DNA of 64,000 bases from Leptonema illini DSM 21528 (GTDB lineage: Bacteria > Spirochaetota > Leptospiria > Leptospirales > Leptonemataceae), in NCBI RefSeq assembly GCF_000243335.1, contig NZ_JH597773.1:3928115-3992114 (forward strand), given 5' to 3'. This document shows positions 1 to 24,083 of the stretch, in pieces (the first letter of the stretch is position 1; every line of letters begins with the position of its first letter). The notes under the pieces were generated by a model. That model searched no databases. It was not told where the DNA came from and saw only the letters and a program-made list of their open reading frames with translations. Position numbers and translations under genes: made by a program.

Positions 1-97
1 GTTTGGAACGATTTGGAACGGGTTCGCTTGCGTCTGACGTAGCGAATTTCCGAGGTCGACAGAATGGATGCGACATAATCAGGGGAAAACGAGCAAA

Positions 98-2373: not shown

Positions 2374-2376
2374 AGT

Positions 2377-2751: not shown

Positions 2752-2799
2752 TACATACATAAAGAATGCGTGAGAACTGCTCTACCCCAGGAGAACGAT

Positions 2800-3864: not shown

Positions 3865-3865
3865 T

Positions 3866-6119: not shown

Positions 6120-6166
6120 ACAAATAAAGAAGCCCTCCTGCAACTTCCTGAACGATGGGAGGCATT

Positions 6167-7669: not shown

Positions 7670-7681
7670 GGGAGGCTATCG

Positions 7682-8122
7682 ATGTCTGTAATTCAACCCG
7701 GGGATTTAATCCCCGAAGCCGGAGCATGGGAAGGATTCCAGCTCAATCTGTTTGGCACTGATCTCGTCGACTTTACTGAGTTCGGTTTAAGCTACGAGGC
7801 CGAGTTCGAAACGAACTATGGTAAGGGCGGCGAAGCGGTGAGCTGGTCGATCAAACGCTACAAGCGGAGTAGCAAGGCTCAGCTGAGTTTCGACCAGATG
7901 GGTTATCTGTTCAATCAGGCTATCATTTATGGTGGTGACCTGCTCAAGTTGCCGCCTCAGCCAATCACAGCGACATCTCAGGTGGGTGACAAAGTGTTCA
8001 AGCTGATCATCCCCGCAGCCAAGATCATCAAGTTTGACATGAACTGGAAAGAGGGTAACTCTAAAATGGATGTTCCCATCGATTTCGGTCTAACGAGTTA
8101 TCCCATTATCATGCTCGTTTGA
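7682..8122 (+). CDS. Tail tube protein (Mu gpM-like)
   Basis: 146 residues, right after the sheath gene and preceded by GGAGG (7671-7675). It forms the inner tube of the contractile tail. It has the usual size, an early strand pair, the recurrent NYGKGG-type loop and a C-terminal beta region. Order sheath, tube, chaperone, tape measure is the invariant order of contractile tails, which makes the call firm even without a similarity search. Confidence 0.8.
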   Translation: MSVIQPGDLIPEAGAWEGFQLNLFGTDLVDFTEFGLSYEAEFETNYGKGGEAVSWSIKRYKRSSKAQLSFDQMGYLFNQAIIYGGDLLKLPPQPITATSQVGDKVFKLIIPAAKIIKFDMNWKEGNSKMDVPIDFGLTSYPIIMLV

Positions 8123-8169
8123 GCCAACCATGAATGCCTGAAGGTTCAGGCAAAAACAGGAGAATTAGA

Positions 8170-8598
8170 ATGGATGCAACGAATGCATACAAGCAGGTTG
8201 GCGGCATTGAGGCCGCCATTAATCAACTTTCACCGATTGAGTCGACGATCGACGATGTCTGGATCGAGCAGAATCAAGAAGCCCTCGATGAGCTGAAAGC
8301 AGTCTACGAAGACAAGGGCGGCATTCACGTGATTGAAGTCGGCGACTCGCATTGCATCTGCCGCGTGCCGGCTCGTGAGATCATGTCGCGTATTGCGAAG
8401 AAGGCTCAGATCAGCAAAGCTGCCGATCCGCTGGCTCAGGATCTGGAACTCTTTCGGCTGTGTCTGCTCTTCCCGCGCTTCGAATCTGAAACAGTGCAGC
8501 GATGGTTGCGTGACGCTCCCGGCCTGCCAACGGCGGTCAGTGTCGAGCTGATGAAGATCGCGAAGGTGACCGTTGAGGCCACCTCAAAAAAGCTGTAA
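8170..8598 (+). CDS. Tail assembly chaperone, short form (Mu gp41 / lambda gpG-like)
   Basis: 142 residues. Chaperones of this kind coat the tape measure protein during tail assembly. The start is ATG 8170, with AGGAG at 8157-8161; the frame opens earlier at 8134 but without support. It lies between tube and tape measure genes and ends in the sequence ACCTCAAAAAAGCTGTAA, which contains a correctly phased slippery heptamer just before the stop. It is therefore the unshifted product of a G/GT-type pair. Confidence 0.8.
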   Translation: MDATNAYKQVGGIEAAINQLSPIESTIDDVWIEQNQEALDELKAVYEDKGGIHVIEVGDSHCICRVPAREIMSRIAKKAQISKAADPLAQDLELFRLCLLFPRFESETVQRWLRDAPGLPTAVSVELMKIAKVTVEATSKKL

Positions 8599-8789
8599 GC
8601 CGGCGCCGTGCAGAGTTAGAGAATGGAAGCGGCCTCGTCGAACTCCTGTCGGCACACTGGTTTCCGGGGCTGCCTGTACCGGAGGACGACGACGGCTATA
8701 TGCAGCGGCTGGCTGAGATAGAATGGATGGAGCGACATCATGTCGAGCTGATGGCTCAGGCGATAGCGAAGGCGCTGGGAGGGAAATAG
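8170..8789 (+). CDS. Tail assembly chaperone, -1 frameshifted long form (lambda gpGT / Mu gp41-42-like)
   Basis: Predicted 206-residue fusion: 141 codons of the short form up to Lys AAG at 8590-8592, then a -1 shift to codon 8592-8594 and 65 further codons to TAG 8787-8789. The -1 frame is open through the whole 8592-8789 stretch, encodes an acidic, Trp-containing domain (HWFPGLPVPEDDDG) and ends just before the next genes. Without the shift the region 8599-8789 would be an unexplained gap. In lambda and Mu the rare fusion protein bridges the chaperone to the tape measure and tube; that role is carried over by analogy. Confidence 0.8.
8586..8592 (+). promoter_or_regulatory. Programmed -1 ribosomal frameshift site (A AAA AAG)
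   Basis: Heptamer A AAA AAG in the zero-frame phase (TCA AAA AAG), two codons before the chaperone stop. This is one of the most efficient slippery sequences in bacteria. The -1 frame downstream stays open for 65 codons. The same design is established for tail chaperone genes of lambda, Mu and many other phages. Confidence 0.85.
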
Positions 8790-8836
8790 AGTGAAAAACA
8801 ACTTGAAATGTCATCCCATCGAGGTATACTGCATTC

Positions 8837-8962
8837 ATGGCAGTAGATCCCTGGAAGCGCAAGGTTCGCAACGAAGGCCTGTTGATACTGCTGGCCTGCG
8901 CCTTGATCGGCATCATTGTCGTTCCGCCGTTACTCGTCCTGATTGCCAGCCTGATATTCTGA
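8837..8962 (+). CDS. Small single-pass membrane protein between chaperone and tape measure
   Basis: 41 residues. A short basic head (VDPWKRKVRNEG) leads into a hydrophobic segment of about 25 residues, ending at TGA 8960-8962. The start is ATG 8837, with GAGG about 12 nt upstream. It fits the gap between the frameshifted chaperone and the tape measure gene better than the overlapping 63-residue frame from 8791, which has no sensible composition. Function unknown; small hydrophobic tail-region proteins, or a holin-like role, are possible. Confidence 0.5.
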   Translation: MAVDPWKRKVRNEGLLILLACALIGIIVVPPLLVLIASLIF

Positions 8963-8978
8963 TTTCCGGAGGGTCGCT

Positions 8979-11363
8979 ATGAGCGATTCCTCCGCCACAT
9001 ACGAACTCAACGCACGCGTCACTGCATGGGACGCTGCAACATCCGTGTTTTCTAAGATAGGAAACCACTGGGATGCCCTGATCAATAAGTTTGAGATGGC
9101 TCCGGATGATAGTGCATGGGTTGCATCACTTCAAAAGAGAGCGAAATACGCCCTTAGCTTCTCTGCTATCTCTGCTGCTGCATTCGTCGGATTGACGACG
9201 AGCATGGTGCATTCTCGCCTTGCAGTCGAAGAGCTCACCGGCGATATACGCACCCTCGGCGCTACGAGCGCTGAGATCCAGCGCATCGAGTCTGCGACGA
9301 CGGCAATGTCGGCAGAGCTCGGTATCGCTCAGACGACTCTTCTCACCGGCATTTATGACATCAAGTCGGCCGTGTCGACGCTTGATCTATCGGCTCTGCC
9401 TGAATTTACGGATGCGATCGCCAGAACGGCCGTCGCCACGAAGGGCAACTTCGAGGATCTCTCGAAAACGTTTGGCATGGTGTATAACCAGTTTGCCCAC
9501 CGATATCAGCATCTTTCTGAGGTAGACTTTGCCCGCAACCTCGGGAATAACATCACGTGGGCGGCTAACAAGTTCCGAGCGGACGGCGAGAGCATCAATC
9601 AGGCATTCACGACGCTCGGCAGTTCTGCGGCCACTGCCGGGTTCACGCTTGAAGAACAATCGGCAATTATCGGACGCCTGCTCAACACGATGGTGCCGTC
9701 GACGGCAGGTAACTCCTTCCGCGTGTTCGTTGATAAGATGGACACAGGCCTCGCGAAACTCGGCATCAGCAAGATCGACCCGGTCACGAAGAAGATGAAG
9801 GCTCTGCCTGATATTCTTGATGAGATCGCAAAGAAGTCGCCGTCGAACAAGCTATTGAATGAAGCCTTTTCTGAAGAAGGCACAAAGATGCTGCGCGAGT
9901 TGCTGCCGCATACGAAGGCTCTGCGCGAAGATATGATCGAGATCGCGACAGCTTCTATGAATCAGAACTGGCAGTTCCTTGACGATGCCTCGGCGATCAA
10001 GATGCAAACGTTCCCGGTATCACTGCGGAGAATACGAGAAGGCCTGACGGCGATCTGGGGGCAGATCTCCTCTGGCGTCGGCCCTCTGACGACTCTGGTG
10101 TCGTGGTTGGCTGATGGCGTGGAATGGCTTGCTCGCTTCACGGCCGAGCATCCGAAGGTGGCACAGTATATCGGCACCTTTGCTCTCCTTGCGACAGGCA
10201 TCGGCGCGGTCGGCGGCATGATCGTCGCCGCAAGTTCGGTTCTCAAAATGTGGACTATCCTCAACTTATACAGTGCCCTCGCATCGGGCGCGGCCACGAG
10301 TGCCAGCGGAGCGTACGCTCTCGGGCTCAAAGCGGTCGGTGTGTCGATGCTGGCAGCGACAAAAGCGGCATGGGGTTTTGCCGTCGCACTGATGGCGAAC
10401 CCGCTCACATGGATCGTTCTCGGCGTCGTCGCTCTGATCGCCGGCATTGCTCTTTTGATTATCCACTGGGATAAGGTGAAGGCTGCCGGCGGGGCCGCAT
10501 GGACATGGATACGAGAACGCTGGTCATCTGCGCCGGGATGGCTGCGCGGGTTGCTGGCTGTGCTCTTTGTCGTGCTCACCGGCGGCCTCGGCATCATCGT
10601 GATTCTCGCGGCGAAGCACTGGGACAAGATCGTTGCATACGGTACGGCTGCATGGCGCTGGATAGCGAACGTATGGGATGCCGGCACCACAGCCTTTGTC
10701 GCTCTATGGGAACGCCTGTCATCGGGCGCCACAGTCGCCTTCGAGACGGTTACCGGTTTATGGAATCGTCTTCCTGGCTGGGCTCAGGGCCTCATCGTAT
10801 TGCTGTCGCCGCTCATCGGTCTGCCTCTCTTGATCGCTTCGAATTGGGCTCAGTTCAAAGGCATCGTCACGGATCTGCTTGCGGGTAACTTCGACGCCGC
10901 ATGGGTCAGAATCAAGTCCCTGGCTCAAAAGGCCGGGCTCGGTTTTGTAACTGCTTTCCTTGAGGGTATGTTCACAGGTGCAGGTCAACTACTCGGCGGC
11001 GTCAAATATCTGTTCGAACAGGTGGATAAGTTCCTGCCTCATTCTGACGCGAAGATGGGGCCGCTGTCGCGGCTCACTCACGCAGGCCGTGCGCTGACGG
11101 GCACTCTCGCTCTCGGTATGGTCGCTGCGACACCGACTCTCGTTCGTGCGACTGATGACATGGCTCGATCTATCGCCGTGCCCGAGATCGTGAGAGAGGT
11201 TGTTTCACCGGCCCGCCGCTCTGATCCTGTAAACATTAAGGGTGGGAATCAAACCACTGTGAATGTTGACCTCCAGCATGATAACCGCGGCCGCAGGGAA
11301 ACGATCGAAGACTGGGGCCGGCATCTGGCTGAGGCGATCTACGACGAACTGGAGCGTGTCTGA
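8979..11363 (+). CDS. Tail tape measure protein
   Basis: 794 residues, ATG preceded by GGAGGG. It sets tail length and passes into the host membrane at infection. The N-terminal 350 residues match the TP901-type tape measure core, with phrases such as TLGSSAATAGFTLEEQSA and ALPDILDEIAKKSP. Several hydrophobic segments follow between about residues 395 and 640, interspersed with Trp-rich short repeats (HWDKVKAAGGAAWTWI and HWDKIVAYGTAAWRWI). The C-terminus is polar. Length and position after the chaperone are decisive. Confidence 0.9.
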   Translation: MSDSSATYELNARVTAWDAATSVFSKIGNHWDALINKFEMAPDDSAWVASLQKRAKYALSFSAISAAAFVGLTTSMVHSRLAVEELTGDIRTLGATSAEIQRIESATTAMSAELGIAQTTLLTGIYDIKSAVSTLDLSALPEFTDAIARTAVATKGNFEDLSKTFGMVYNQFAHRYQHLSEVDFARNLGNNITWAANKFRADGESINQAFTTLGSSAATAGFTLEEQSAIIGRLLNTMVPSTAGNSFRVFVDKMDTGLAKLGISKIDPVTKKMKALPDILDEIAKKSPSNKLLNEAFSEEGTKMLRELLPHTKALREDMIEIATASMNQNWQFLDDASAIKMQTFPVSLRRIREGLTAIWGQISSGVGPLTTLVSWLADGVEWLARFTAEHPKVAQYIGTFALLATGIGAVGGMIVAASSVLKMWTILNLYSALASGAATSASGAYALGLKAVGVSMLAATKAAWGFAVALMANPLTWIVLGVVALIAGIALLIIHWDKVKAAGGAAWTWIRERWSSAPGWLRGLLAVLFVVLTGGLGIIVILAAKHWDKIVAYGTAAWRWIANVWDAGTTAFVALWERLSSGATVAFETVTGLWNRLPGWAQGLIVLLSPLIGLPLLIASNWAQFKGIVTDLLAGNFDAAWVRIKSLAQKAGLGFVTAFLEGMFTGAGQLLGGVKYLFEQVDKFLPHSDAKMGPLSRLTHAGRALTGTLALGMVAATPTLVRATDDMARSIAVPEIVREVVSPARRSDPVNIKGGNQTTVNVDLQHDNRGRRETIEDWGRHLAEAIYDELERV

Positions 11364-11938
11364 TGATAAACGCTAATCCCATCAAGTCACTCGATGGCGG
11401 CCGCATCATTGATGCGTTTGAAACCCTCTGGGGAGATCCGCTCATCCTCAAAGGGGAAGGCACGGACGCATGGAGGTCGTTTCGCTTTCCGCCCGGCACG
11501 CGCATTCGACTGGCCACGCAACGGATCATGAGCCGCACGCGGGTGCCAGACCGAAACGGATCGATCAAAGAGATGAGCGGATATGATGACTTCTCGGTCG
11601 ACATCGATTTAGATCTGGTTCTGCCCGCGTACAGCGATCTGCTACCGAACCCTGAAGGCCCCGGACTGGCCGAGACGGCCGACTCTGTCGCCGACTACCT
11701 CGGCATACAGTCCATCGTCGATGCGCTTATCAAGCTCAAGAACATCTGGCAAATCGAATCGAGGCTGGTCGTCGATAACGAACGCATGAATGCCCTCGGC
11801 ATTGAGTACCTCGTTCTGGAGAGGTTTACGATTCCGGATAACCCGACATACTCTCATCAGCCGGTGCAGATCACTGCTTACAGCGATACGGACTATGAGC
11901 TACTCCTGACAGAATCTAAAACAGGGGGCACCCCATGA
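11363..11938 (+). CDS. Phage baseplate-region protein (DUF6046-like), unassigned
   Basis: 191 residues, start overlapping the tape measure stop (TGATG) and ATGA overlap with the LysM gene. It appears beta-rich, with a DDFSVDIDLDLVLP strand pair and a C-terminal segment (QPVQITAYSDTDYELLL) that recalls DUF6046-type proteins, which sit next to LysM tail proteins in other contractile systems. Mu encodes gpN (DNA circularisation) in this slot, but the protein is too short for that. A tail-initiator or hub-associated role is inferred from position. Confidence 0.45.
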   Translation: MINANPIKSLDGGRIIDAFETLWGDPLILKGEGTDAWRSFRFPPGTRIRLATQRIMSRTRVPDRNGSIKEMSGYDDFSVDIDLDLVLPAYSDLLPNPEGPGLAETADSVADYLGIQSIVDALIKLKNIWQIESRLVVDNERMNALGIEYLVLERFTIPDNPTYSHQPVQITAYSDTDYELLLTESKTGGTP

Positions 11939-12297
11939 CGCATACGTGGCGCAGCGGTGATACCTTGCAGCGCATAGCGGCTCGCTGGTATGGAGACTGG
12001 ACGCTGTGGCCGGCCGTGCGTGATGCAAACGGTCTGGTTTCTGTCCTGCCGTCATCCGGCCAGAGGCTTGAGATCCCGGATCTGCCTGACCGCGAGCGAT
12101 TGCATACGGTCGTCAGTGGCGACTCTTATGAATCCGTTTCGCTGCTCTATTATGGCACCGAGCATTTCGCCGAACGTCTGCGCAATGCCAACCCGACAGA
12201 ACATATCTATGATCTCGTCGGCCGCCAGATCGTGATTCCTGCTCTGGTTAACGGAGCCACTGTGCGGAGGCTGCGCAATGCTGCGAATGCAGTTTGA
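11935..12297 (+). CDS. LysM-domain tail protein (P2 gpX-like)
   Basis: 120 residues with a LysM-type repeat at the start (WRSGDTLQRIAARWYGD) and a second, weaker one (HTVVSGDSYESVSLLYYG). Small LysM proteins in contractile tails hold the hub, spike and tube together. ATGA overlap upstream; the next gene begins inside its last 20 bases. P2 gpX and the LysM linkers of contractile injection systems occupy the same place before the hub gene. Confidence 0.8.
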   Translation: MTHTWRSGDTLQRIAARWYGDWTLWPAVRDANGLVSVLPSSGQRLEIPDLPDRERLHTVVSGDSYESVSLLYYGTEHFAERLRNANPTEHIYDLVGRQIVIPALVNGATVRRLRNAANAV

Positions 12298-13645
12298 ACT
12301 TACGATCGGCAAGTTTACCGTGCCATATATCGTTCGGGCTGAGTGGGATCAGTCGCGCTCCACGATGGTTCAGGAGTTCAAGGTGATCCTGCCGTACTAC
12401 AAGAACATCTCAGAGATTCAGCCAGAGGATACGGTCGTTTTCCGGTGCGGCTATAAAGAGGTCGATTACGGAGACCCCGATGGCCATAAGCTTCCCATTG
12501 AATTCGTCGGCCAGATCTATGAGATAGGCGCTCCCGATCGCAAGGACACGAACGATAGCGAGAACTACTTTCGCAAGAGCGGGGGCGCTCGCGAGGGCCG
12601 CCTCATTGAGATTAAAGCCCGAGATCCACTTTACAAACTCCGCTTTATGAAAGTAGATCAGAGCTGGGTTGGCACAAATTATCTGAGAATGCAAACCGAA
12701 CTCTTCCTAACGAAACTGGAATCATACACCGCAGCACAGGGAACCCCTTTGAAAGTAAAGCGTTTATATGATGCAGAGACAGTCAATCCTTCGGGTGGAC
12801 TGTACTTCCCATTGAACCAGCTTCAAAGTGTGCTTCATGCGCTATCCATCATGCGGGAAGTGAAGAACGATGGGCTCGGCATCGACATCTACTATCGTGA
12901 TGGTGCTCTAATTCTGAAAGATCCTGGAGATCCTGACTACGTCGAAACCCGTGTCGGAGCCTTTGTATTCGGGCAAAACATCATTGATGACGATCTTTAC
13001 GCACGGCCGGGGAAGGCCGTTAAGGTGACAGTTCGAGGCTATGATCCTGATCTGGGTCAATCCTATAGCGGGACTTATCCCGGAGTAGATGCTCAAGATT
13101 TGAGGGCTGTTCGGTTGTTCAACCGACATGAAGCGGCAAAGGGCGATTTTTCAGATTCGTCACTGAAGCAATCTATCGGGAATTATGCCGAGTTGAACTT
13201 TGATGTTTCTGGAATCAAAAGCGACCAAGCCGCCAAAGAGAAGGCGATGCGGATCTGGGAAGAGATTGCCGGAGATGGATTTCAGGGAAACTTCACTACG
13301 TTCGGCTGGCCTCGTGTGCTGAGCTCGAATCCTATCCTAATCCACGACAAGCGCAATCCAGCGCGAACGGGGTTGGCGATCGTTAACAGAGTGAAGAAGG
13401 TCTTTGACTATTCCAATGCCTCATACCGGCAGCAAGTGGAGCCCGGATACTTCCCTTCGAAGATCGAGAACGGTCTGACGGTACGGTCGACGCCGACGGG
13501 CACGCCAGCTGCATCGCAGCAAACCGAAAACGCCCAGCAGCGCCTGAGCACCATCACAGCTCCAAGAGCCACACAGTTCGGTGGCCAGATGAGCCTGACG
13601 CAGGCGATCGAGTTCGCGAAGCAGGCGAAGGACGGTAAGCAATGA
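12278..13645 (+). CDS. Baseplate hub protein (P2 gpD / Mu gpP-like)
   Basis: 455 residues. The hub caps the tube and carries the spike. The N-terminal part has the beta-barrel hub pattern (FTVPYIVRAEWDQSRST, EDTVVFRCGY), a central region ending GKAVKVTVRGYDP, and a C-terminal Pro/Ala/Gln-rich tail. Starts at ATG 12278 or 12287 are both possible; the overlap with the LysM gene is 20 or 11 bases. The next gene overlaps by ATGA. Codon use and AT content are locally higher (about 12,660-13,240), hinting at exchange of the middle part. Confidence 0.75.
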   Translation: MLRMQFELTIGKFTVPYIVRAEWDQSRSTMVQEFKVILPYYKNISEIQPEDTVVFRCGYKEVDYGDPDGHKLPIEFVGQIYEIGAPDRKDTNDSENYFRKSGGAREGRLIEIKARDPLYKLRFMKVDQSWVGTNYLRMQTELFLTKLESYTAAQGTPLKVKRLYDAETVNPSGGLYFPLNQLQSVLHALSIMREVKNDGLGIDIYYRDGALILKDPGDPDYVETRVGAFVFGQNIIDDDLYARPGKAVKVTVRGYDPDLGQSYSGTYPGVDAQDLRAVRLFNRHEAAKGDFSDSSLKQSIGNYAELNFDVSGIKSDQAAKEKAMRIWEEIAGDGFQGNFTTFGWPRVLSSNPILIHDKRNPARTGLAIVNRVKKVFDYSNASYRQQVEPGYFPSKIENGLTVRSTPTGTPAASQQTENAQQRLSTITAPRATQFGGQMSLTQAIEFAKQAKDGKQ

Positions 13646-14244
13646 AAGGCGGTCTTGTCGATGCGATTGTTGCGGCATGGCAGAAAGGCCATCCCATGTA
13701 TTATGCCCTCAGCGGCACCGTTACGAAGGCCAGTGCTTCGCCAAAGCGCTGCGACGTGAAAGTCGGCGACGCTACCGTGCCCGATATCGAGTACACGGCA
13801 GAAGGTGTGCCGGCCATTGACGCTGAATGCCTTGTCGTTTTCAGGGGCAACAATCCGGATCAGGGCCTCGCCGTCGGTTTCTCGCGCTTCGCATCGATTG
13901 AGATGGAAGTGGGCTCTGCGCCGGCCGGCTCACCGACGAACGCAACGATCAAGACCAGCGCTGAGAAGATCGAGCTCAAGCTGCTACAGACCGAGATCAA
14001 GCTGGAGCCGACGGCTCTGACAGCAAAGGTCGGCACGAATGAGCTTCTCGGTGCGGCCGCATCTGGCTGGGTGTTCAAAGGCCCGGTCGAGTTTCAGGCA
14101 GACGTGCACATGAAAGAAGAGCTGACCGTCGACAAGAAGGCTACGGTCAACGGCATCGACTTCGAGAATCACGGCCACCCGTACACGGATGAGCCGGGAT
14201 CGATTGCGAAAGTAACTTCGAAGGCGCAGCCTCTGGGAGCATAA
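13642..14244 (+). CDS. Baseplate spike protein (gpV / Mu gp45-like)
   Basis: 200 residues. An N-terminal OB-fold-like barrel (about residues 20-90) is followed by a repeating beta-helix-like stalk (NATIKTSAEKIELKLLQTEIKLE) and a C-terminal VNGIDFENHGHPYTDEPG motif. The HGHPY type motif binds metal in P2 gpV family spike tips. It pierces the outer membrane when the tail contracts. Position after the hub and before the gpW-like gene matches P2 and Mu. Confidence 0.85.
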   Translation: MKGGLVDAIVAAWQKGHPMYYALSGTVTKASASPKRCDVKVGDATVPDIEYTAEGVPAIDAECLVVFRGNNPDQGLAVGFSRFASIEMEVGSAPAGSPTNATIKTSAEKIELKLLQTEIKLEPTALTAKVGTNELLGAAASGWVFKGPVEFQADVHMKEELTVDKKATVNGIDFENHGHPYTDEPGSIAKVTSKAQPLGA

Positions 14245-14246
14245 CG

Positions 14247-14630
14247 ATGGCAGATATTGCAGGCTACAGCGGTCCGTTCGGCGGTGCCAACCCTCAGAAG
14301 GGCGATCTCTATCTTGAGTCGGCGACCTTCGATCTGGCAGAGGATGAGATCGTCGGGCAGAACATTCTCGATGAACTGGAAGAACTGTTTGAGATGACGC
14401 CGGCCGACGATCTGGATTTTCCAGAACTCTACTCGATGCAGCAGAGCGCCTATCTCGGTGAAGAGGGCTCCCGCAGCGACGGCCTGCGCCGGATCAGGGA
14501 CACGCGTCGGATGCTCGCTCTTATTCCCGGCATTGATGTGGAGAATTCCCGAGTCCAGCTTGACGCGCAGAACAGCATTGTTTTAGACTTACGACTGAGC
14601 GACGGCCGCAAGCTGTCGCGGACGATTTGA
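14247..14630 (+). CDS. Baseplate wedge protein (gpW / Mu gp46-like, gp25 family)
   Basis: 127 residues. The gp25-like wedge subunit links the hub to the wedges and initiates sheath assembly. The central helix ends in an EEGSRSDGLRRI segment, and the C-terminal strands (VQLDAQNSIVLDLRLSDG) are consistent with the family. It follows the spike gene by two bases and precedes the J-like gene. Confidence 0.7.
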   Translation: MADIAGYSGPFGGANPQKGDLYLESATFDLAEDEIVGQNILDELEELFEMTPADDLDFPELYSMQQSAYLGEEGSRSDGLRRIRDTRRMLALIPGIDVENSRVQLDAQNSIVLDLRLSDGRKLSRTI

Positions 14631-14684
14631 GATACATATAGAGCTCGAAAAGAGCGAAGAACTGCACTTCCGCCAGAGGCGGAA

Positions 14685-15830
14685 ATGATTCCTTTCCCAT
14701 CGAAGGATGAGGTATACAACGAGATCGTTACGATCCTGAAAGCCGCTCAGGACGTAAACGGCAAGCTGCTCTTTCGCAGCCACCGATTCAGCCCGCTTTC
14801 GCGGACAGGGACGATCATCCGTGCCCTGTCGATGGGCGTCTATCTGTTCATCGATACCATCCTGTATAAGCTCCTCAAAGCAATCCACCCGCACACATCT
14901 GAAGAAGAGGAACTGCACGAGCATCTCGCCGCACGCGGAATGGAGTGGAAGAAGGCACAGGCTGCGAGACATACGGTCCGCATCGGTAGCTCGGAACCTA
15001 TTACAGCCGACATACCCATCGGACAGGGACAGATCGTTGCAACGGCCGGCGAAGGCGCTGTCCGTTTCCGATCGCTCGAATCGATCACGGTGCCGGCCGA
15101 TACGGCTGCAGACTCTCGCGGCTACTATACCGTTGAGACGATCGTCGAATGCCTCGAAAGCGGTATCATCGGCAATGTGGCCGCTGATGCCATATCGGTG
15201 ATCGAGTCCGGTCCGTCTGGCATCGACGTTGTGTATAATCCCGATGTCGATCCTGTCACATCCGGGGCTCCACGCGAGACGATCAATCAGGCACGGGAGC
15301 GCATCCGCACCTATGATGCGGCCGCAGGAACGATGTGGCTACCTGACTGGTATCGGACAAAGGCCGAATCGCATCCGAACGTCGCCCGAGCGATCTTCAA
15401 GAGCAGCCGTGATATCGGCATTCCCGGAGCCGTGAAGCTCTGGCTGCTTGCGCTGTCCGGAACTGTCACGCCTTCCGAACAAGCTGAGATCCTTGCCATG
15501 TTCGAGAGTGATGAAAACGATCCCGGTGCCGTTGCTCGTGTGCTCCTTGAGAACTTCACGCCCGTCGCCGTCGATCGCATCATTCAGGTGCAGTTTCAGG
15601 ATGCGGCCAGCATTCCGGCGCAGGAAATCCTCGATGAGATCTTCGATCGCTATTTCTCAGGTTTAACCGAGGGCGAAAACTACATCGAGGCCGATATCAA
15701 GGCCCTTTATCTTGCACTGCCGCGCACGGTTCGCGTGCTCTGCAACCCACCGGGTGATGTGGTCGTCGCGGCCGGTCAGGTTGCCGTGGCCGGCGATTAT
15801 GAGGTCAGAGGGGAGGTCTACGTCGCATGA
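14685..15830 (+). CDS. Baseplate J-like protein (gpJ / Mu gp47-like)
   Basis: 381 residues, the largest wedge subunit of contractile tails. Typical family features are the N-terminal helical region with LHEHLAARGMEWKKAQ, a central beta domain with IPIGQGQIVAT, and the conserved turn RETINQARERIR before the C-terminal part. It starts at ATG 14685 and overlaps the next gene by ATGA. Confidence 0.85.
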   Translation: MIPFPSKDEVYNEIVTILKAAQDVNGKLLFRSHRFSPLSRTGTIIRALSMGVYLFIDTILYKLLKAIHPHTSEEEELHEHLAARGMEWKKAQAARHTVRIGSSEPITADIPIGQGQIVATAGEGAVRFRSLESITVPADTAADSRGYYTVETIVECLESGIIGNVAADAISVIESGPSGIDVVYNPDVDPVTSGAPRETINQARERIRTYDAAAGTMWLPDWYRTKAESHPNVARAIFKSSRDIGIPGAVKLWLLALSGTVTPSEQAEILAMFESDENDPGAVARVLLENFTPVAVDRIIQVQFQDAASIPAQEILDEIFDRYFSGLTEGENYIEADIKALYLALPRTVRVLCNPPGDVVVAAGQVAVAGDYEVRGEVYVA

Positions 15831-16477
15831 TCTTCTCGTTCGACTTCGATTCGCTCATCTGGGCGAACATGCGTCGACGCATCCGTGCGCTCGGGCCGGA
15901 CTCGTTCTGGTATCGATTCCTCGCCGCTCTGTTGCTGGTCCTCTCCGAGCGTGTCACGCGGGCGAACTGGCTCTTGCGCCAGATCTGGTTTGAGACCTCG
16001 GACGGTAGCGGTCTCATCCTGTGGGGCCAGCGCTGGGGCATTCCTCCGCTTTACGGCGAGGATCTCGAAGCCTACCGAAACCGAATCATCGAAGAGCGGG
16101 CTCACTTGCGCAACCCGACCAATGCCACGCGAAAGGCCATCGTATCACAGATACTGCTTACGCCTGTTGCAGACGTCGAGATCGTGCGTGTATACGACCA
16201 CGTCTGGACAGTCGGCGGTCCTGTCGGTGCCCCCATTGCCTCGCGTGATTATGCGATGACGGCCTATCATATCTACGCTCCGACCCCGATCGTCGGTGAC
16301 CTTGCCGAGCGTGGAGCTCGCATCCGTCGCCTGATCGATCGCATCACGGTCGGTGCAGGCTGGCCTGAGATCTATCTCGATGCGGGGGTAGGCTCCGTTC
16401 CGTCATCCGGCCAGACCGTCGGCCGGCGCATCGATGCGGCCCCGGACAGCCCACTCCACGTATTCCATCCATTCTGA
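15827..16477 (+). CDS. Baseplate wedge tail protein I-like (Mu gp48-like)
   Basis: 216 residues, ATGA overlap with the J-like gene. The second small wedge protein completes the wedge with gpJ and anchors the fibres. Recognisable features are the region around WGQRWGIPPLYGEDLEAYRNRI (seen in DUF2313 and gpI-like proteins) and the C-terminal beta part. The order J, I, fibre is conserved in P2 and Mu. Confidence 0.75.
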   Translation: MIFSFDFDSLIWANMRRRIRALGPDSFWYRFLAALLLVLSERVTRANWLLRQIWFETSDGSGLILWGQRWGIPPLYGEDLEAYRNRIIEERAHLRNPTNATRKAIVSQILLTPVADVEIVRVYDHVWTVGGPVGAPIASRDYAMTAYHIYAPTPIVGDLAERGARIRRLIDRITVGAGWPEIYLDAGVGSVPSSGQTVGRRIDAAPDSPLHVFHPF

Positions 16478-16484
16478 GGTAAGC

Positions 16485-17837
16485 ATGAACACAACACCAG
16501 GCATAGTATGGCCCCAGAGGGGCAAAGCAGTCTATCAAGAGGATCTCGATTTCGAGCAGGTATCCAAGGACGATGCGATCGTTAATAGGACAGCGGATCA
16601 TTACTCTCATGGCGTCCAGTTCGGCGGCGAGGTAACGATCGCCGGTGCCGGATTGATCAGTGTAGGGCCGACGTTGGCCTATGATATTGATGGCAAGCGA
16701 ATTCACCATCCATCATCGCAGAGCGTCATTGTGCCCGACGGATCATGGATCGTCGCCTTGCGTCACGAATGGTCCATGAGCGACGGCGTCGACCCGGATC
16801 TATCAGGCACGTCTGTTCAGTACCGCAACGACAGTTACGTAATCGTGCTCCGTGCGGCCGCACAGCCGGGTGATATCCCGCTGTGGTCGGTGACGTTTGC
16901 TGCCGGGGTCGGCACGCTCGGGGCAGATCTGCGCAGCTTGCGTTCAATGACGATTGCGGGCGGACTGGATGTGGGCGGCAAGATCCGTGCCTACGGCGGC
17001 ATCGAGGTGTTCGGCTCGATGACGTCGATCGAGACGGTTAACCAACAGATCAAAGATGCCGTCATCGATCTCAATCATGGCGAGACAGGCGCCGGGGTAT
17101 CGCTGGGCTACGCCGGTCTGCGTGTTATGCGAGGCAGTCTTCCGGCCCAGAGACTCGTATTCGACGAAGCCGTCGATCGGTTCCGTGCCGGCGTCGAAGG
17201 ATCAGAAGAGTTGATAGCGCTCCTTTCCGAAGTGTTTACACAGGCACAAATAAACGCTTTCTTTTCCGGCGAAGCCGGTGGAAAGAAATTAGTCGATTGG
17301 GCCAATGTCATCAATAAGCCAGCGAGCACGACGATTGGCCGGCTCGGCATCTACATCGAGCCGACATCGCCCGCAGGCGTGCTGTATTTCGGCGGCACCT
17401 ATCCATCGCGAGCCGCTTATGCAGGCCTGTGGGATTGGGTCAGCGCCCGCCCATCGCTGATTGATGACGCGAATAAGGCCAAATTTGGCACGGGGGATGG
17501 AGCGACGACGTTTCGGTTACCTGACTGGAGAGGGTTAGGCGTCCGCGGCGCGGGCGCAAGTGGAGCTTTCCTGAAGGCGAACGGCAGCTATTATGACGGT
17601 GGCCTTCTGATGGGTGTCATTCTCGATCAGCTGCTGAGCCACAGACATCAAATCTTCAGCGCCAATGGGCCGAGCGGCGGCTCGACAACCGCAGCGACGT
17701 TCGCGATCTCGTCGCCTGGCGGCACGTGGGCGGACTGGTCGATCAGCGGGCCGACCGCCCTGTCGTCCGGCATTCGCACGGGTGATGAGACACGCGGTGC
17801 GACAGTGGGCATACACTGGGGTATATCATATGAGTGA
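16485..17837 (+). CDS. Tail fibre protein with C-terminal tail-collar domain
   Basis: 450 residues. Start ATG 16485 has GAGGT about 8 nt upstream; an earlier in-frame start at 16434 lies inside the previous gene. The N-terminal half is a beta-rich shaft that would attach to the baseplate. The C-terminal quarter has the phage tail-collar signature (DGATTFRLPDWRGLGVRG), followed by an LSHRHQ segment and a Gly/Thr-rich tip. It is the receptor-binding protein for adsorption, and the next gene is its assembly helper. Confidence 0.85.
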   Translation: MNTTPGIVWPQRGKAVYQEDLDFEQVSKDDAIVNRTADHYSHGVQFGGEVTIAGAGLISVGPTLAYDIDGKRIHHPSSQSVIVPDGSWIVALRHEWSMSDGVDPDLSGTSVQYRNDSYVIVLRAAAQPGDIPLWSVTFAAGVGTLGADLRSLRSMTIAGGLDVGGKIRAYGGIEVFGSMTSIETVNQQIKDAVIDLNHGETGAGVSLGYAGLRVMRGSLPAQRLVFDEAVDRFRAGVEGSEELIALLSEVFTQAQINAFFSGEAGGKKLVDWANVINKPASTTIGRLGIYIEPTSPAGVLYFGGTYPSRAAYAGLWDWVSARPSLIDDANKAKFGTGDGATTFRLPDWRGLGVRGAGASGAFLKANGSYYDGGLLMGVILDQLLSHRHQIFSANGPSGGSTTAATFAISSPGGTWADWSISGPTALSSGIRTGDETRGATVGIHWGISYE

Positions 17838-17847
17838 GGTAATCGAG

Positions 17848-18540
17848 ATGGCTAACGACACATATTACTGCTGGGACGCAGATGGCGCCTATACGCACTC
17901 GGAGCCAGCACAGCCAGATCACATCGCGGGCGGCTATCTGGCTCCGCCGGATAACGCAACGTTTGATTCCATACCTGCCAAGCCGTGGCCCGAGCACACA
18001 TGGCCTCGGCGTGTGGGCACTGCGTGGGTGCTCGTACCAGACAACCGTGATGTCCTGCTGTGGCTCAAGGCGGATGGATCGCCAGTAAGGCTTGATCTCG
18101 GCGATGAGCCTGATGAGACGATGACGACATTGGAGCCGAAGCCCGGTCAGGTATGGCAGGATGATCAATGGCGATACACGCGATCGGATCTTGAGGGGTG
18201 GTATCTCGCCCGGATCAACGGGCAGGCAGAGGCCGCTCTCGCAGCGCTGAAGGCAACGTATCCCGACGCAGAGGTCCGCACGTGGGATCGACAGGAGGCC
18301 GAGGCGCGCGCCTATCAGTCCGACAGTAACGCGTCGACGCCGATGATCGACGCTCTTGCAGCGTCGCGTGGGGTATCTAAGGCCGATCTTGTCAGCCGGA
18401 TCATCGCTAAGGCCGATGCATGGGTCGTGATCGTCGGTCAGGTTATCGGTCAGCGGCAGGCGCTGGAAGACGCTATGCCAACTATGACAGATGCGGAGAT
18501 CGAAGCCGCCGTGTTTCCGTCTACTGAACCGCAGCAGTAA
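17848..18540 (+). CDS. Tail fibre assembly (Tfa-like) protein
   Basis: 230 residues. Start ATG 17848 (MANDTYYCW) has GAGGT 9 nt upstream; the frame is open further upstream inside the fibre gene. The N-terminal half is a small beta domain, and the C-terminal half matches DUF4376-type sequences (IDALAASRGVSKADLVSRI, GQVIGQRQALEDA), which are common in genes just after tail fibres. Such proteins assist fibre folding or form its tip. Confidence 0.75.
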   Translation: MANDTYYCWDADGAYTHSEPAQPDHIAGGYLAPPDNATFDSIPAKPWPEHTWPRRVGTAWVLVPDNRDVLLWLKADGSPVRLDLGDEPDETMTTLEPKPGQVWQDDQWRYTRSDLEGWYLARINGQAEAALAALKATYPDAEVRTWDRQEAEARAYQSDSNASTPMIDALAASRGVSKADLVSRIIAKADAWVVIVGQVIGQRQALEDAMPTMTDAEIEAAVFPSTEPQQ

Positions 18541-18598
18541 GTAGGTCGGAAAAACAAGCTGGACAATCACCGTGAGATGTGCTAAACATACGTGCAGG

Positions 18599-19354
18599 AT
18601 GAAAACCGCAACCTTTTCTCCTGCCTTCGATTCGGGCGGGATTACGCTATTTCACGGCGATGTTAAAGAGATACTGCCGACCCTCGCAGACCAGACGATT
18701 GACGCCTGCATTACAGATCCGCCTTACGGTGTAACGGCTGCCAGATTCGACCAACCGCTCCCGCTCGACTGGCTCTGGCCTCAGCTAAATCGGCTTCTCC
18801 GTGATGACGCGCCGATCGTCCTTTTCTCGCAGCAACCTTTCACGAGCGATCTCGTGTCGAGCAACCGCAAGCAGTTCCGGTGCGAGTGGATCTGGAACAA
18901 GCACCTCGTCACCGGCAACCTGAATGCCAATGTACGGCCGATGCGGAAGCATGAGAATGTCGTCGTCTTTTCCCGCCGAAAGGCGAAGTACCATCCGCAG
19001 ATGAGCACCGGAAAACCGTACCGATCGAAAGCCCGGCAGAAGACGTCTGAGAATTACCGGACATGGGAGACTCAAGACGTCGAGAATCCCGGAACCAGAT
19101 TCCCGACCTCGATTATTGACGGAATCCCTCGGAAAGTCATCCCTGGAGGGCATCCCCAGCAGAAGCCCTTGGAGATCATGATTTACCTGATCAAAACCTA
19201 TTCCGACCCCGGCGATGTGATCCTCGATTTCACCTGCGGGAGCGGCACGACGCTGGAAGCGGCCGCCAGAATGGGCCGCCGGGCAATCGGGATTGAGCGG
19301 GAAGAGCGATTCGTCGAGATGGCGATCGGGCGGCTTTGTGGGGTTTTTAACTGA
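18599..19354 (+). CDS. Phage DNA methyltransferase (amino-MTase, DPPY type)
   Basis: About 251 residues from ATG 18599; a GTG at 18572 is an alternative start. It methylates an exocyclic amino group using S-adenosylmethionine. The catalytic motif IV is TDPPYGV near residue 40. The SAM-binding motif I lies near the C-terminus (DFTCGSGTTLEAAARMGRR), giving beta-class order. It sits at the prophage right end, the position of the DNA-modification gene mom in Mu, so protection of phage DNA from host restriction is the likely role. No restriction partner is adjacent. Confidence 0.85.
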   Translation: MKTATFSPAFDSGGITLFHGDVKEILPTLADQTIDACITDPPYGVTAARFDQPLPLDWLWPQLNRLLRDDAPIVLFSQQPFTSDLVSSNRKQFRCEWIWNKHLVTGNLNANVRPMRKHENVVVFSRRKAKYHPQMSTGKPYRSKARQKTSENYRTWETQDVENPGTRFPTSIIDGIPRKVIPGGHPQQKPLEIMIYLIKTYSDPGDVILDFTCGSGTTLEAAARMGRRAIGIEREERFVEMAIGRLCGVFN

Positions 19355-19554: not shown

Positions 19555-20082
19555 ATGGAAAAATCGCCAACCACCTCAATAATTTACAAAACTCCGAAGG
19601 AATGCAATTGGTCTAAAGCTACGGTGGAGCGCTATGCTCAAATGCTGGCAGAAAAGTTGGGATTTAAGGTTGCCGGAGATTTACCTGGCGTGGTCAAAAG
19701 CTTGAACGGGGAAATCATATATTTGCCACCGAGTGCCTTTGACCGTACTGAAGATGGATCAATCGAAATTGAAGAGGACGGATCATTTCAAATCTTTCTG
19801 TCATCCTTCACCCATCCGCTTCGCGACCGATTTACGGTAGCTCACGAACTCGGCCACTACTTCCTCCATGCGGAATGTAAAGGCCCATTTAAGGCCGAGC
19901 GATACGGCACCGGTCGAACAGAATGGGAGGCAAACTGGTTCGCGAGTGCTTTCTTGATGCCTGCCGAAAGAGTAGCAGAAGAGTTTGAGAAAAACACCAG
20001 CATTTCTGATCTTGCCGATATTTTCTGTGTGTCTCCAAGCGCTATGGAGGTTAGACTGAAAAGGCTTGGGCTGCGTGGCTAA
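19555..20082 (+). CDS. ImmA/IrrE-family zinc metallopeptidase
   Basis: 175 residues. Zinc motif HELGH at residues 97-101 and the downstream EANWFASAFLMP segment define the ImmA/IrrE (COG2856, M78) family. ImmA cleaves the ICEBs1 repressor ImmR, and IrrE/PprI cleaves DdrO. An N-terminal helix region precedes the catalytic domain. The usual XRE repressor partner is not next to it. Instead the stop overlaps the GTG of a nucleotidyl cyclase gene by 8 bases. AGGAG lies about 15 nt before ATG 19555. The pair is AT-richer than the virion genes, as expected of a cargo acquired separately. Confidence 0.9.
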   Translation: MEKSPTTSIIYKTPKECNWSKATVERYAQMLAEKLGFKVAGDLPGVVKSLNGEIIYLPPSAFDRTEDGSIEIEEDGSFQIFLSSFTHPLRDRFTVAHELGHYFLHAECKGPFKAERYGTGRTEWEANWFASAFLMPAERVAEEFEKNTSISDLADIFCVSPSAMEVRLKRLGLRG

Positions 20083-21001
20083 ATCACAACTGATTGCTTT
20101 TTGCAGTATTGATGTTATTGGTTCGACTGCTTTCAAAACTCAGAAAGATAGGAGCGAAGCCAGTGAGCAAGCATGGTTCCAGTTCTTTCAGGAATTCCAC
20201 GAGGATATGCGAGTGCGCATTGAAAGCGCTGGTGGTTGGGAATTCTGGAAGAGTGCTGGTGACGAACTTCTTTTTACATCCGAGGTGCTGCAAAAGGAAG
20301 ATATGGTTCACCTCGTGAATGTATTGAAAGCCGCCATTGATCGTCACAACGAAGGATTTCAAAAACAAGAAAAGGAAAAGCATCTGGCTGTTAAGGGAGC
20401 AATCTGGATTGCTGGGTTTCCCGTTGTCAACGCTGTAATCAAGAGCAAGAATCCTGATATAAAACCAGATTATCTTGGGCCATCTATAGATGCTGGATTT
20501 CGCATTTGTAAGTTTGCCAGCGCCACCAGGATTGCCATTTCAGTAGAGGCGGCATATCTCCTTAGCTCTGCCGTTGTTTCAGACCAATGGAATGAGATGC
20601 AGGGTATTAGATACGGCGGTGAAACTGAGCTTAAAGGCGTTTTCGGAGGTAACCCTTATCCAATGTTGTGGATACCTCTCAAGGATCCATTTGAAGAGGC
20701 AGCATTCAAACTGACAGGGAAACCTGAGCGATTGGATCGTGACGATTTCATCGTCTACTGCAAAGCTGCAATTAAGAAAGTAAACAATGAACTCGCTTGT
20801 CATTTGCCATATATCGTAGGAGAATCAGGCCAACCCACGTTCGGCAATATACCAGATTTACATTCAGTGAGAAAGCAAAGCATTGATAAAAAGGAGGCTA
20901 TGCAAGAAGCTGCAAGTATTGGTGAATCTGGTAATAATACTGATGGCCAAGATATTCCTAATGACGACCTCCAAACCAAAATCACGAAATCAATGCCTTG
21001 A
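20075..21001 (+). CDS. Class III nucleotidyl cyclase-like protein
   Basis: 308 residues from GTG 20075. The cyclase homology domain spans about residues 5-200. The first metal Asp is D13 in FCSIDVIGST and the second is D63 in SAGDELL. A GPSIDAGFR segment places Asp139 where the transition-state Asn usually stands, with Arg143 retained. A later LKGVFGGNPYPM strand closes the fold. The C-terminal 105 residues match nothing I know and end in a polar tail. No membrane segment is visible. The overlap with the metallopeptidase gene (GTGGCTAA) indicates coupled translation. Substrate is unknown; relatives make cAMP, cGMP or, in Pycsar immunity, cCMP and cUMP. Confidence 0.8.
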   Translation: MAKSQLIAFCSIDVIGSTAFKTQKDRSEASEQAWFQFFQEFHEDMRVRIESAGGWEFWKSAGDELLFTSEVLQKEDMVHLVNVLKAAIDRHNEGFQKQEKEKHLAVKGAIWIAGFPVVNAVIKSKNPDIKPDYLGPSIDAGFRICKFASATRIAISVEAAYLLSSAVVSDQWNEMQGIRYGGETELKGVFGGNPYPMLWIPLKDPFEEAAFKLTGKPERLDRDDFIVYCKAAIKKVNNELACHLPYIVGESGQPTFGNIPDLHSVRKQSIDKKEAMQEAASIGESGNNTDGQDIPNDDLQTKITKSMP

Positions 21002-21002
21002 T

Positions 21003-21076
21003 CGATACGTAATCAATCAGTTTTCCCGACTTAACCGCACATTCTGCAAATTTGTTTTGCCCGCAAATACGCCGCA
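21003..21076. other. Probable prophage right attachment/transposition end
   Basis: Between the cyclase stop and the start of kdpD-like coding lies an AT-rich stretch with two similar words, TGCAAAT and CGCAAAT, around TTTGTTTTGCC. It finishes ...CGCCGCA before TTGATCAGC, from which KdpD homology is continuous. Transposable phages end in CA, so the inferred junction is 21076/21077, giving a predicted 5 bp duplication of TTGAT at the left end. The exact base is an inference. Confidence 0.45.
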
Positions 21077-22411
21077 TTGATCAGCGCCCTGTCGTGGAAC
21101 TTTCTTTTTATTCCGCCTCGCTTTACGTTTCATATCTATCGACTTGAGGATGCTCTCATGTTCGGTTTTTATTTCGTGATCGCCGCCGTCACAGGCGTGC
21201 TGACCTCGCGAGTCCGCACTCGCGAGAATCTTGTTCGGCGTCGGGAGGCGATGACGACGGCGCTTTACAGGGTGACGAAAGAGCTGGCGGCAATGGATCG
21301 CCCGGTGTCTATGATCGCCGTCTGTATAACCCAGCTCGAAACTCTGCTTCCGGTGAAGGTCTCTATTCTTGCTTCGAGCGAAGGCTCTCTGGATTTTCCC
21401 GATGAAAGAGCGATGTCGGATCGCGAGCGAGCCGTGGCGCTCTGGTGCCATGACAATCGTCGTCCCGCGGGCAGGTTTACCGATACGCTACCGGTTTCAC
21501 CGCATCAGTATCTGCCTCTATTGAGTTCAGGGCAGATTGCCGGAGTCATGCAGCTTGAGTTTGCAGATGACGTTGACCGCAAAGGGGCTGATCCTCTATC
21601 ATCTGAGGCCCGCATGCTTGTCGAGTCCGTCGCCGCTCAGCTTGCATCGGCTCTTCTTCGCGTCGAAGGGACGAGAAAGAGCGACGCCCTGCGCCTGCAT
21701 GCCGAATCCGACAGGCTGTACCGCAACATCCTGTCGTCCGTTTCGCATGAGCTGCGAACGCCGATCACGACGATTAAAGGAGCGGCCTCCGCTCTTGAGC
21801 CTCACATGCAGACCTCCGCCTCGAAGGAGCTGTTAACCGATATTGTCGATGCCTCCGATCGATTGAATGCTCTGATTGAGAACCTGCTTGATATGCAGCG
21901 CATCGAATCGGCACATGTGGTTCCGCGGTTGATCTGGTCTGATCCCGGCGATATTATGGCCGGCGTCGCCTCTGATGCGAAGGACATACTTAACGGGACG
22001 ACCATCCGTCTGGTCAGGCCGGCGATTGTTCCGCTTGTATTCGTCGATCCCGTTTTGATAGCGCAGGCGTTGAGCAATCTCGTACGAAACGCTATGCGTT
22101 ATTCAGGAGGCGGGGAAGTTCGGCTCGGTTTCAACGTGGTATCGGGTCGGCCCGTCTTTTCCGTTGAGGATGATGGTCCGGGCATTTCACCGGGCGAGAG
22201 AGAAAGGGTGTTCGAGAAATTCTATCGTTCGAGCATGACGCGATCGCAGATGCCCGGAGCGGGCCTTGGCCTGTCGATAGCGAAAGGCTTTGTCGAGGCT
22301 CATAGAGAAGCGGAGCTTCGGTTAAAGACGGGCAGGAACGGTGGATTGAACAGGTTTGAGATCCTGCTCGGAGAGGATGCTGTATATGAAGCAAGCAGTG
22401 CTGATCATTGA
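21077..22411 (+). pseudogene. kdpD: kdpD remnant: sensor kinase lacking the N-terminal half
   Basis: 444 codons of a KdpD-type histidine kinase. The remnant begins in the membrane region (NFLFIPPRFTF, a KdpD hallmark loop), then one more membrane segment, a GAF-like region, the H-box SHELRTPITTIKG, the N-box NLVRNAMRYS, and G-boxes DDGPGIS and GAGLGLSIAKG. Missing are the KdpD/Usp sensor domains and the first membrane helices, about half of the usual 900 residues. The break coincides with the prophage end. kdpD normally senses K+ limitation and phosphorylates KdpE. Its 3' end overlaps kdpE by 26 bases, as in intact operons. Confidence 0.85.
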
Positions 22412-22532
22412 TGATGAACTGCCCATCCGGCGCTTTCTGCGAGTCGGTCTTGAAGATGCGGGTTACCGCGTTGCGGAGGCCGACGAGGGCGAGAAAGGCG
22501 TCGTGCTTGCGGCGAAAGAGCGACCCGATATA

Positions 22533-22549
22533 GAAGCCATCTCAAATAT
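22533..22549 (+). repeat. IS left inverted repeat
   Basis: 17 bp terminal repeat, GAAGCCATCTCAAATAT, pairing with the right end with two mismatches (first base and position 15). Confidence 0.9.
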
Positions 22550-22623
22550 AAACTACTGACAAGTACTTTTTGCTTGTACTGCCGAGGGGTTCGTACAACG
22601 ATAGCTCCTATAGGAGCTCTATC

Positions 22624-23393
22624 ATGGATATCACAGATGCCCAATGGAAGATCATAAAGCCTCTTATCAAAGAACCAAAGCCACGAGAAGACGGGAGGGG
22701 GCGGGAGAGAATTGATCCGCGAAGTATTCTAAATGGAATCTTGTGGATTTTGAAAACTGGAGCCCGCTGGCAGGATCTACCGGATAGGTATCCTTCCTAT
22801 CAGAGTTGTCATCGTCGCTTTCAGGAGTGGACTCGTAACGGCACAATTGAAAAGATTCTCCTGGCTCTGGCGAGAGACCTTGAAGAACGTGGTGGAATTG
22901 ACATTGAAGAAAGCTTTATAGACGGAACTTTCGTTTCGGCTAAAAAAGGGGGCTCAAAATCGGGAAAACAAAGCGTGGTAAAGGGACCAAGATCATGGCA
23001 ATGGCAGACGCTTCCGGTCTTCCTATCGCCTGCTGGGTTGAAAGCGCTTCGCCACATGAAGTCACTCTCGTAGAGAAGACTATTGATCATAAGTTCACAA
23101 GAAAAGCTCCTCGAAGGATTATCGGTGATCGAGCTTATGATTCCGATAAATTGGATAAACAACTTCGAAAGAGAAGAATCAAGATGATAGCCCCACATAG
23201 ACGGGGCCGGAAAAAGGAGAGTACACAGGATGGACGGGAATTGCGTCGATACAAACGCAGATGGAAGGTCGAAAGACTCTTTGCCTGGCTCCAGAACTTT
23301 CGTAGAATACTCAATCGATTCGAAAGATATTGGGAAAATTATCTTTCATTTGTCAGGTTAGGCTGTATCGTTATCCTACTCAGACATTTTTGA
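22624..23393 (+). CDS. IS5-family transposase, expressed by -1 frameshift
   Basis: The first frame starts at ATG 22624 ([11 protein letters not shown]) and carries the DUF4096 N-terminal domain and the first catalytic Asp (SFIDGTFV); unshifted it would end at 23073. The second frame, used from about 22968, encodes the rest of the DDE core ([15 protein letters not shown], and [12 protein letters not shown] with the Glu) to 23393. Joined at the slippery site they read [13 protein letters not shown], the usual IS427-group sequence, for a protein of about 256 residues. It acts on the inverted repeats of its own element. Confidence 0.88.
22962..22968 (+). promoter_or_regulatory. Programmed -1 frameshift site (G GGA AAA) in the transposase
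   Basis: G GGA AAA in zero-frame phase (TCG GGA AAA CAA). A -1 shift here moves to codon ACA at 22968 and continues in the second frame, giving a protein that matches the family without gap. Frameshift control of transposase level is well established in IS elements. Confidence 0.75.
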
Positions 23394-23402
23394 GATGGCT
23401 TG
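23386..23402 (-). repeat. IS right inverted repeat
   Basis: Reads CAAGCCATCTCAAAAAT on the minus strand. The transposase TGA stop (23391-23393) lies inside this repeat. Confidence 0.9.
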
Positions 23403-24083
23403 TAATCATTCTGGATCTGATGCTACCCGATCTATATGGCATCGAGGTATTGCAGCGATTACGCGAGTGGTTCAGCGGCCCGATTCTCGTTCTGTCCGTG
23501 CAGGGGAGCGAAGATGATAAGATCGCAGCCCTTGATGCCGGTGCCGACGATTATCTGACGAAGCCTTTCAGTACAGGTGAGTTGCTTGCGCGGATGCGTA
23601 CCTTGCTGCGACGCGTTGTTCGAGAAACTCCGCAGCCAGTCTATCGCTTCGGAGACCTTGTTGTCGACCTTGGCCGACATGTTGTGCAGAGAGGCGATCA
23701 GAACATCCATCTATCGTCGACGGAGTATGCCCTTCTTTCAATATTTTTGCGGCATGTTGGTCGTGTGCTGACGCATAACCAGTTGCTGCGTGAACTGGGG
23801 CGTCCTGCCGGTGAGACTCCGGATGATGTGCGTTCCGCCATGCAGTATCTGCGTGTGTACGTGAATCAGCTGCGCGAGAAGATAGAAGAGGATCCGCATC
23901 GACCGGCCATCATCGTGACCGAGACCGGCGTGGGATATCGCTGCACGGAGCCCTGAGCTATGGGCTAACAGGGCGCCCGGCACGGTTTTGATGACAATTA
24001 TGTGAATTTAAACCTCTCAGATCGACAGGCCCGCCTTTATTACTTGCGGTCGCATCTGTTCATGCGATCCGGTCTCTCACGAT

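Follow-up and report, generated by a model that had tools for sequence, protein, structure and literature searches.

A recurrent gene pair of an M78 metalloprotease and a derived class III nucleotidyl cyclase, found at a prophage end in Leptonema illini and in phages, plasmids and chromosomes of other bacteria

Known nucleotide-signalling defences combine a synthase with an effector. One of them, Pycsar, joins a cyclase of the class III fold (PycC) to the effector PycTM or PycTIR and occurs in mobile and defence contexts. Proteases of the M78 family are known from CapP/CapH, which is associated with CBASS, and from IrrE (PprI)/DdrO, where the operon partner of the protease is an HTH repressor. 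Single-stranded DNA switches on PprI, and CapP as cited in the same work (PMC10904395), and in ICEBs1 the repressor ImmR is cleaved by ImmA (cited in PMC2701414). Phages LE1 of Leptospira and phiC2 of Clostridioides difficile were named by Makarova et al. (2009) for M78-XRE operons, without a cyclase (PMC2701414). Here, we describe a locus of the Leptonema illini type strain 3055T in which the partner of an M78 protease is a cyclase.

The stretch of DNA that was analysed, called the window below, is 64,000 nucleotides long. The pair and the features on which the argument depends are the following:

19555..20082, + strand: gene of an M78 (ImmA/IrrE-type) zinc protease of 175 aa, a short form without a separate sensor domain (PF06114, E 2.5e-18)
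19843..19857, + strand: codons of the zinc-binding motif HELGH, residues 97-101, read from the sequence
20075..21001, + strand: gene of a derived class III nucleotidyl cyclase, 308 aa from GTG (AlphaFold model, structure matches, PHROG_18024)
20075..20082, + strand: 8-base overlap of both reading frames (protease stop TAA at 20080-20082, cyclase GTG at 20075)
20111..20113, + strand: codon of the first metal-binding Asp of the cyclase, invariant (78/78)
20261..20263, + strand: codon of the second metal-binding Asp of the cyclase, in a GDE motif, invariant (78/78)
20489..20491, + strand: Asp codon of the cyclase replacing the canonical transition-state Asn (Asp in 78/78)
20501..20503, + strand: codon of the catalytic Arg of the cyclase, invariant (78/78)
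21070..21075, no strand: target repeat CGCCGC, right copy, the prophage ending at 21069 (same repeat at 1451-1456 of L145)

A first-pass annotation of this DNA had described an M78 reading frame with HELGH at residues 97-101, an 8-base overlap with the gene that follows, the metal residues D13 and D63 and an Asp at residue 139, and all of these are found at the positions above. The cyclase residues are so numbered from the GTG at 20075; counted from 20072, as we do below, they are D14, D64 and D140. The overlap of the two frames is predicted to couple their translation. Scans of the locus with Rfam and for tandem repeats, promoters and terminators gave nothing above chance.

The protease is most closely related, among solved structures, to CapP and IrrE. 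Both were retrieved by a profile of 60 partner proteases (2e-16 and 2e-8, respectively), which covers only their peptidase part, and the present protease lacks the extra C-terminal domain that they carry. The M78 active-site motif is complete, with H97, E98, H101 and E123 invariant in the alignment of the 60 relatives. As had been noted in the first pass, no XRE gene adjoins the window pair. Since its partner is a cyclase and not an HTH repressor, the pair is not of the ImmA/ImmR or CapP/CapH type.

The second gene was matched by none of the Pfam, NCBIfam, PADLOC and single-sequence PDB searches and only by two PHROG families of function unknown (PHROG_18024, E 3.6e-45). Its reading as a cyclase depended on the fold, which an AlphaFold model built with 78 relatives bears out (pLDDT 90.8, pTM 0.87): the first ~205 residues form a class III nucleotidyl cyclase fold, with CyaB of P. 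aeruginosa as the best structure match (Z 17.9, rmsd 2.8 over 184 residues). The class IIIc adenylyl cyclase Rv1900c of M. tuberculosis shares this fold (Z 17.3, rmsd 2.1), ranks first, weakly (E 0.046), among solved sequences searched with the family profile and shows an LKGV-type C-terminal motif in the profile match. Unlike the present cyclase, however, Rv1900c is not paired with a protease, and the two are only ~19% identical. The metal-binding Asp 14 and Asp 64 and the catalytic Arg 144 are present in all 78 aligned relatives, Lys 60 in 77/78 and Asp 133 in 75/78; by the usual roles of these residues in the class III fold, we take the last two to bind the base and the others to bind the metals and to act in catalysis.

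In class III cyclases, a canonical Asn normally precedes the catalytic Arg. Asp stands at this transition-state position in 78/78 relatives. The position varies within class III, Rv1900c, for example, aligning a His. One of our search patterns favoured Asp at 140, the second pattern being an alternative to it, and Asp 140 is also found in family members that were detected by BLAST or HMM and not by the search motif. The first-pass annotation had suggested that the Asn-to-Asp substitution may change substrate or activity. We considered whether the substitution is special to this copy and reject this view: because Asp is present in all aligned relatives, it is a family signature and not a local mutation. 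Fixed as it is, it could weaken cyclisation or eliminate it. Two positions ahead of the first metal Asp, another residue is likewise fixed, being Ser in 78/78, where two known pyrimidine cyclases have Phe (F100/D102 in EaPycC and F60/D62 in AnPycC; PMC11224242). The last ~20 residues of the cyclase are modelled with low confidence and vary among relatives. Finally, a few cyclases (L003, L007, L112 and L166) carry a C-terminal NUDIX-like domain (NUDIX_4 at 4.6e-7 for one, the others recognised by inspection); its catalytic box looks degenerate by eye, and it is perhaps a nucleotide-binding sensor.

A search of 84,980 species genomes for two short patterns yielded at least 286 relatives, of which 80 were kept. 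A scan of viral contigs returned nothing when started from a single sequence and 50 relatives when started from an alignment, which was thus needed. After removal of near copies, 97 relatives were left. These belong to Pseudomonadota, Verrucomicrobiota, Planctomycetota, Spirochaetota, Campylobacterota, Acidobacteriota, Actinomycetota and Cloacimonadota, to which the Clostridioides phages add Bacillota, at least nine phyla in all, and the carriers include phages, plasmids and chromosomes. Within Spirochaetota, the cyclase family was detected by HMM in 12 of 393 genomes and is therefore sporadic. In 83 of the 97 non-redundant relatives, the gene immediately upstream, in the same orientation, encodes an M78 protease; the two genes are separated by at most 30 bp in 80 of these 83 pairs, and their frames overlap in 41. 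The tree distances of protease and cyclase are correlated (r 0.64, against 0.32 for the best of 2000 permutations). Recurrence of the two-gene order in other genomes and phages, which the first-pass annotation had set out as a check, is thus observed across phyla, phages and plasmids. Its remark that the pairing is unusual does not hold, as members of this cyclase family normally have a protease partner. Other genes on the same strand and less than 51 bp from the pair are rare on both sides (downstream in 5/78, upstream in 6/74), which indicates that the unit consists of two genes. A conserved third gene was considered and rejected, the neighbours being variable.

No M78 gene lies directly upstream of the cyclase in 14 of the 97 relatives, 12 of which form one clade without a protease partner, mostly of Caulobacteraceae (L020, L034, L037, L040, L054, L055, L058, L065, L066, L075, L086 and L088), that may represent a domesticated regulator. 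Four spirochaete copies of the cyclase also lack a protease. These copies bear on the idea that the pair resembles a toxin-antitoxin system, in which the cyclase would be harmful through nucleotide depletion or a signal, the protease would restrain it and the pair would stabilise mobile elements. Two small, overlapping and co-inherited genes on plasmids and phages would fit such a system, but protease-free cyclases persist in Caulobacteraceae and in some spirochaetes, which speaks against a simple toxin, and we consider this explanation very improbable. Several members of the protease-free clade share a chromosomal locus that appears, from the sequence, to hold a (p)ppGpp gene of the RSH type together with vitamin B6 or pyrimidine genes and genes resembling pyrE, pdxJ or acpS.

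Direct homologues of the pair are ORF1/ORF2 of Leptospira phage LE1 and gp41/gp42 of C. difficile phage phiC2, which are annotated only as hypothetical or DUF955; the phiC2 record itself remarks on the likeness of the two. In contrast to the listing of these phages under M78-XRE operons, the direct partner of M78 in both is the present cyclase. We found no description of the pair in the open-access literature (preprints and subscription papers were outside the scope of the search), and the cyclase family has no name in Pfam, NCBIfam or PADLOC; the protease-cyclase module is apparently undescribed. A repressor or integrase gene is found close to the pair in several prophages, including LE1, phiC2 and prophages of Treponema. 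This could indicate a control of lysogeny, in which the protease would cleave a phage repressor encoded elsewhere in the prophage, with the cleavage of ImmR by ImmA as precedent, and the cyclase would couple this cleavage to the nucleotide state of the host. Many pairs, however, reside in chromosomes, plasmids or a restriction operon with no repressor alongside, and the window pair sits at the far end of its prophage, again without a repressor gene next to it. A viral contig (L112) is also at odds with such a role: its cassette of a PycTM gene, the protease and the cyclase is flanked on one side by a probable phage repressor and on the other by an M78 gene and an integrase that belong to the phage itself. 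Because this phage has a separate M78 gene, the protease of the cassette is not the lysogeny protease. We thus regard lysogeny control as quite unlikely. Upstream of the L112 cassette lies an HTH gene, which was considered as a part of the module and set aside, as it is more likely the phage repressor, given the M78 gene and integrase that follow.

A link to a known defence comes from PycTM, which was found among the genes within two of the pair. A two-transmembrane protein of the PycTM type adjoins the pair in 5 of the 97 related loci, four of them independent and three with the gene in the same operon:

phage phiC2, gp40 (gp40-gp42 at 4330-6995 of L007), convergent with the pair: PADLOC PycTM, 2.9e-31, annotated hypothetical
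Sphingomonas (L052), convergent with the pair: resolved individually
Methylococcaceae (L021 and L059, the latter Methylomonas), upstream in the same operon: resolved individually
viral contig (L112), upstream in the same operon: resolved individually

PycTM is rare (8 of 296 Spirochaetota genomes and 2 of 14 control genomes), and we therefore estimate that ~0.01 such neighbours would be expected among the ~300 neighbour genes. The arrangement of gp40-gp42 is also seen in many C. difficile prophage contigs. In a spirochaete (L166, 3003-13634), a type I restriction operon contains, between hsdS and hsdR, first the pair and then an XRE-M78 gene and a PIN gene. Other defence genes seemed enriched around pairs as well, but we claim enrichment for PycTM alone. 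No common effector emerged among the remaining neighbours: the small proteins of L031, L012, L083, L076, L101 and L100 have no Pfam match, and NifU (L027), a nucleotidyltransferase (L078), a PIN protein (L061) and a thymidylate kinase (L018) were rejected as well.

The present family shares with Pycsar the class III fold, the mobile and defence context and, in these five loci, an adjacent effector, which in phiC2 is gp40. It differs from Pycsar in its constant protease partner, in the lack of an effector at most loci, the window included, and in its active site, where Ser replaces the base-contacting Phe and Asp replaces Asn. None of 78 family members was matched by the PADLOC cyclase models, a set that may not cover all PycC clades, and 2 of the 78 matched the candidate-defence model PDC-S07 (up to 8e-12). 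No PycC chain is among the best 50 structure matches listed, which says nothing on kinship. We do not file the pair as Pycsar because the window copy has no PycTM, no PADLOC cyclase model is matched and the active-site residues differ; the module may nevertheless work in a similar way, since some of its copies adjoin an effector of the PycTM family. The link to Pycsar-type defence raised in the first pass is borne out in a part of the family, by the PycTM neighbours and the L166 restriction operon; the window copy may protect against phages. The accompanying statement that no known Pycsar effector adjoins the window pair extends further: PycTM was detected neither in the window nor anywhere in the Leptonema genome.

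These neighbours also bear on whether the protease could itself be the effector. The cyclase would then sense infection and make, or only bind, a nucleotide by which the protease is activated. Cleavage of a target in the host or the phage would follow, growth would stop and PycTM, where present, would act as a second effector. Protease and cyclase do form the constant core, most loci have no other candidate effector and the protease has no sensor domain of its own. However, the persistence of protease-free cyclases and the retention of the protease beside PycTM fit a regulatory protease better, and we judge a protease effector unlikely. Since loci with PycTM still carry the protease, we favour a regulatory protease that acts on the cyclase.

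The pair is a copy, carried by a prophage, of a mobile, self-contained module, and the role that we consider the most likely, at roughly even chances of being correct, is nucleotide-signalling antiphage defence (superinfection exclusion). This reading is supported by the retained cyclase fold and catalytic residues, by the upstream protease in 83/97 relatives with agreeing tree distances, by the sporadic distribution over at least nine phyla including phages and plasmids, by the excess of PycTM neighbours and the pair between hsdS and hsdR, and by the separation of the L112 cassette protease from the phage's own M78 gene. Against it, ~95% of loci have no adjoining PycTM and the Leptonema genome has none, the Asn-to-Asp substitution could impair cyclisation, and the pairs near repressor or integrase genes also fit a lysogeny role. 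As to how the module would operate, we infer the following order of events. An infection or DNA-damage cue would switch the protease on, single-stranded DNA being plausible during phage replication by comparison with PprI and CapP. The protease would then act on its partner cyclase, perhaps by trimming the variable C-terminal tail, whose last ~20 residues are a possible cleavage site. The cyclase would subsequently make a mononucleotide-type signal to be read by an effector, which in some copies would be the adjacent PycTM, damaging the membrane, and in other copies would be unlinked or of another kind.

A broader proposal is that the metalloprotease and the cyclase-fold enzyme act together as a single signalling unit of a widespread immune system. 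The altered active site of the enzyme (Ser and Asp for Phe and Asn) would make a nucleotide signal different from the cyclic pyrimidines known so far, and the effectors, PycTM among them, would be exchangeable. We put this forward tentatively and regard it as somewhat unlikely; no protease-coupled nucleotide signal of this kind was found described in the open-access literature. The constant partner in this family is a protease of the repressor-cleaving kind. If confirmed, the module would link two branches of signalling in bacterial stress and immunity, one based on M78 proteolysis and the other on class III cyclases. It would also explain genes that have long been annotated as hypothetical in phage LE1, in Leptospira plasmids and in C. 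difficile phages, and would offer, in a cyclase active site with fixed substitutions, a candidate source of a new signal.

The assembly of L. illini 3055T comprises 4,522,760 bp in three scaffolds, the first of 4,325,094 bp (PMC3746420). The transposable prophage in the left part of the window is ILNN158, the sole member of its group (PMC8705779); we read the code NN in its name as "ends not defined". We placed these ends, which give an element of 41,328 bp inserted in kdpD. The gene is split, with its N-terminal part 41 kb upstream, and a kdpD of 900 codons is regained when the prophage flanks are joined, CGCCGC being present at both junctions. The protease-cyclase pair thus lies inside a transposable (Mu-like) element bounded by a target repeat and stops 68 bp before its right end. 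Its GC content is 0.451, against at least 0.518 in every 1447-bp stretch of window 1-19354. The position at the right prophage end and the AT-richness relative to the virion genes had both been noted in the first reading and are confirmed by these data; owing to its place near the end and its low GC, the pair has the location and the look of accessory cargo.

ILNN158 spans L145 1457 to window 21069 and does not have TG...CA ends, as it starts with TGTCCGG, ends with GCAAATA and is flanked by a 6-bp target repeat. In window 22356-23956, kdpE is split by an IS5-like element with a transposase in two frames and inverted repeats at 22531-22549 and 23386-23404; with the prophage in kdpD, both potassium two-component genes are therefore interrupted. 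Three genes of the prophage resemble DNA methyltransferases, one next to the pair (window 18572-19354, PF01555) and two recognised by inspection at the left end (L145 1578-2609 and 3164-4261), which perhaps serve against restriction.
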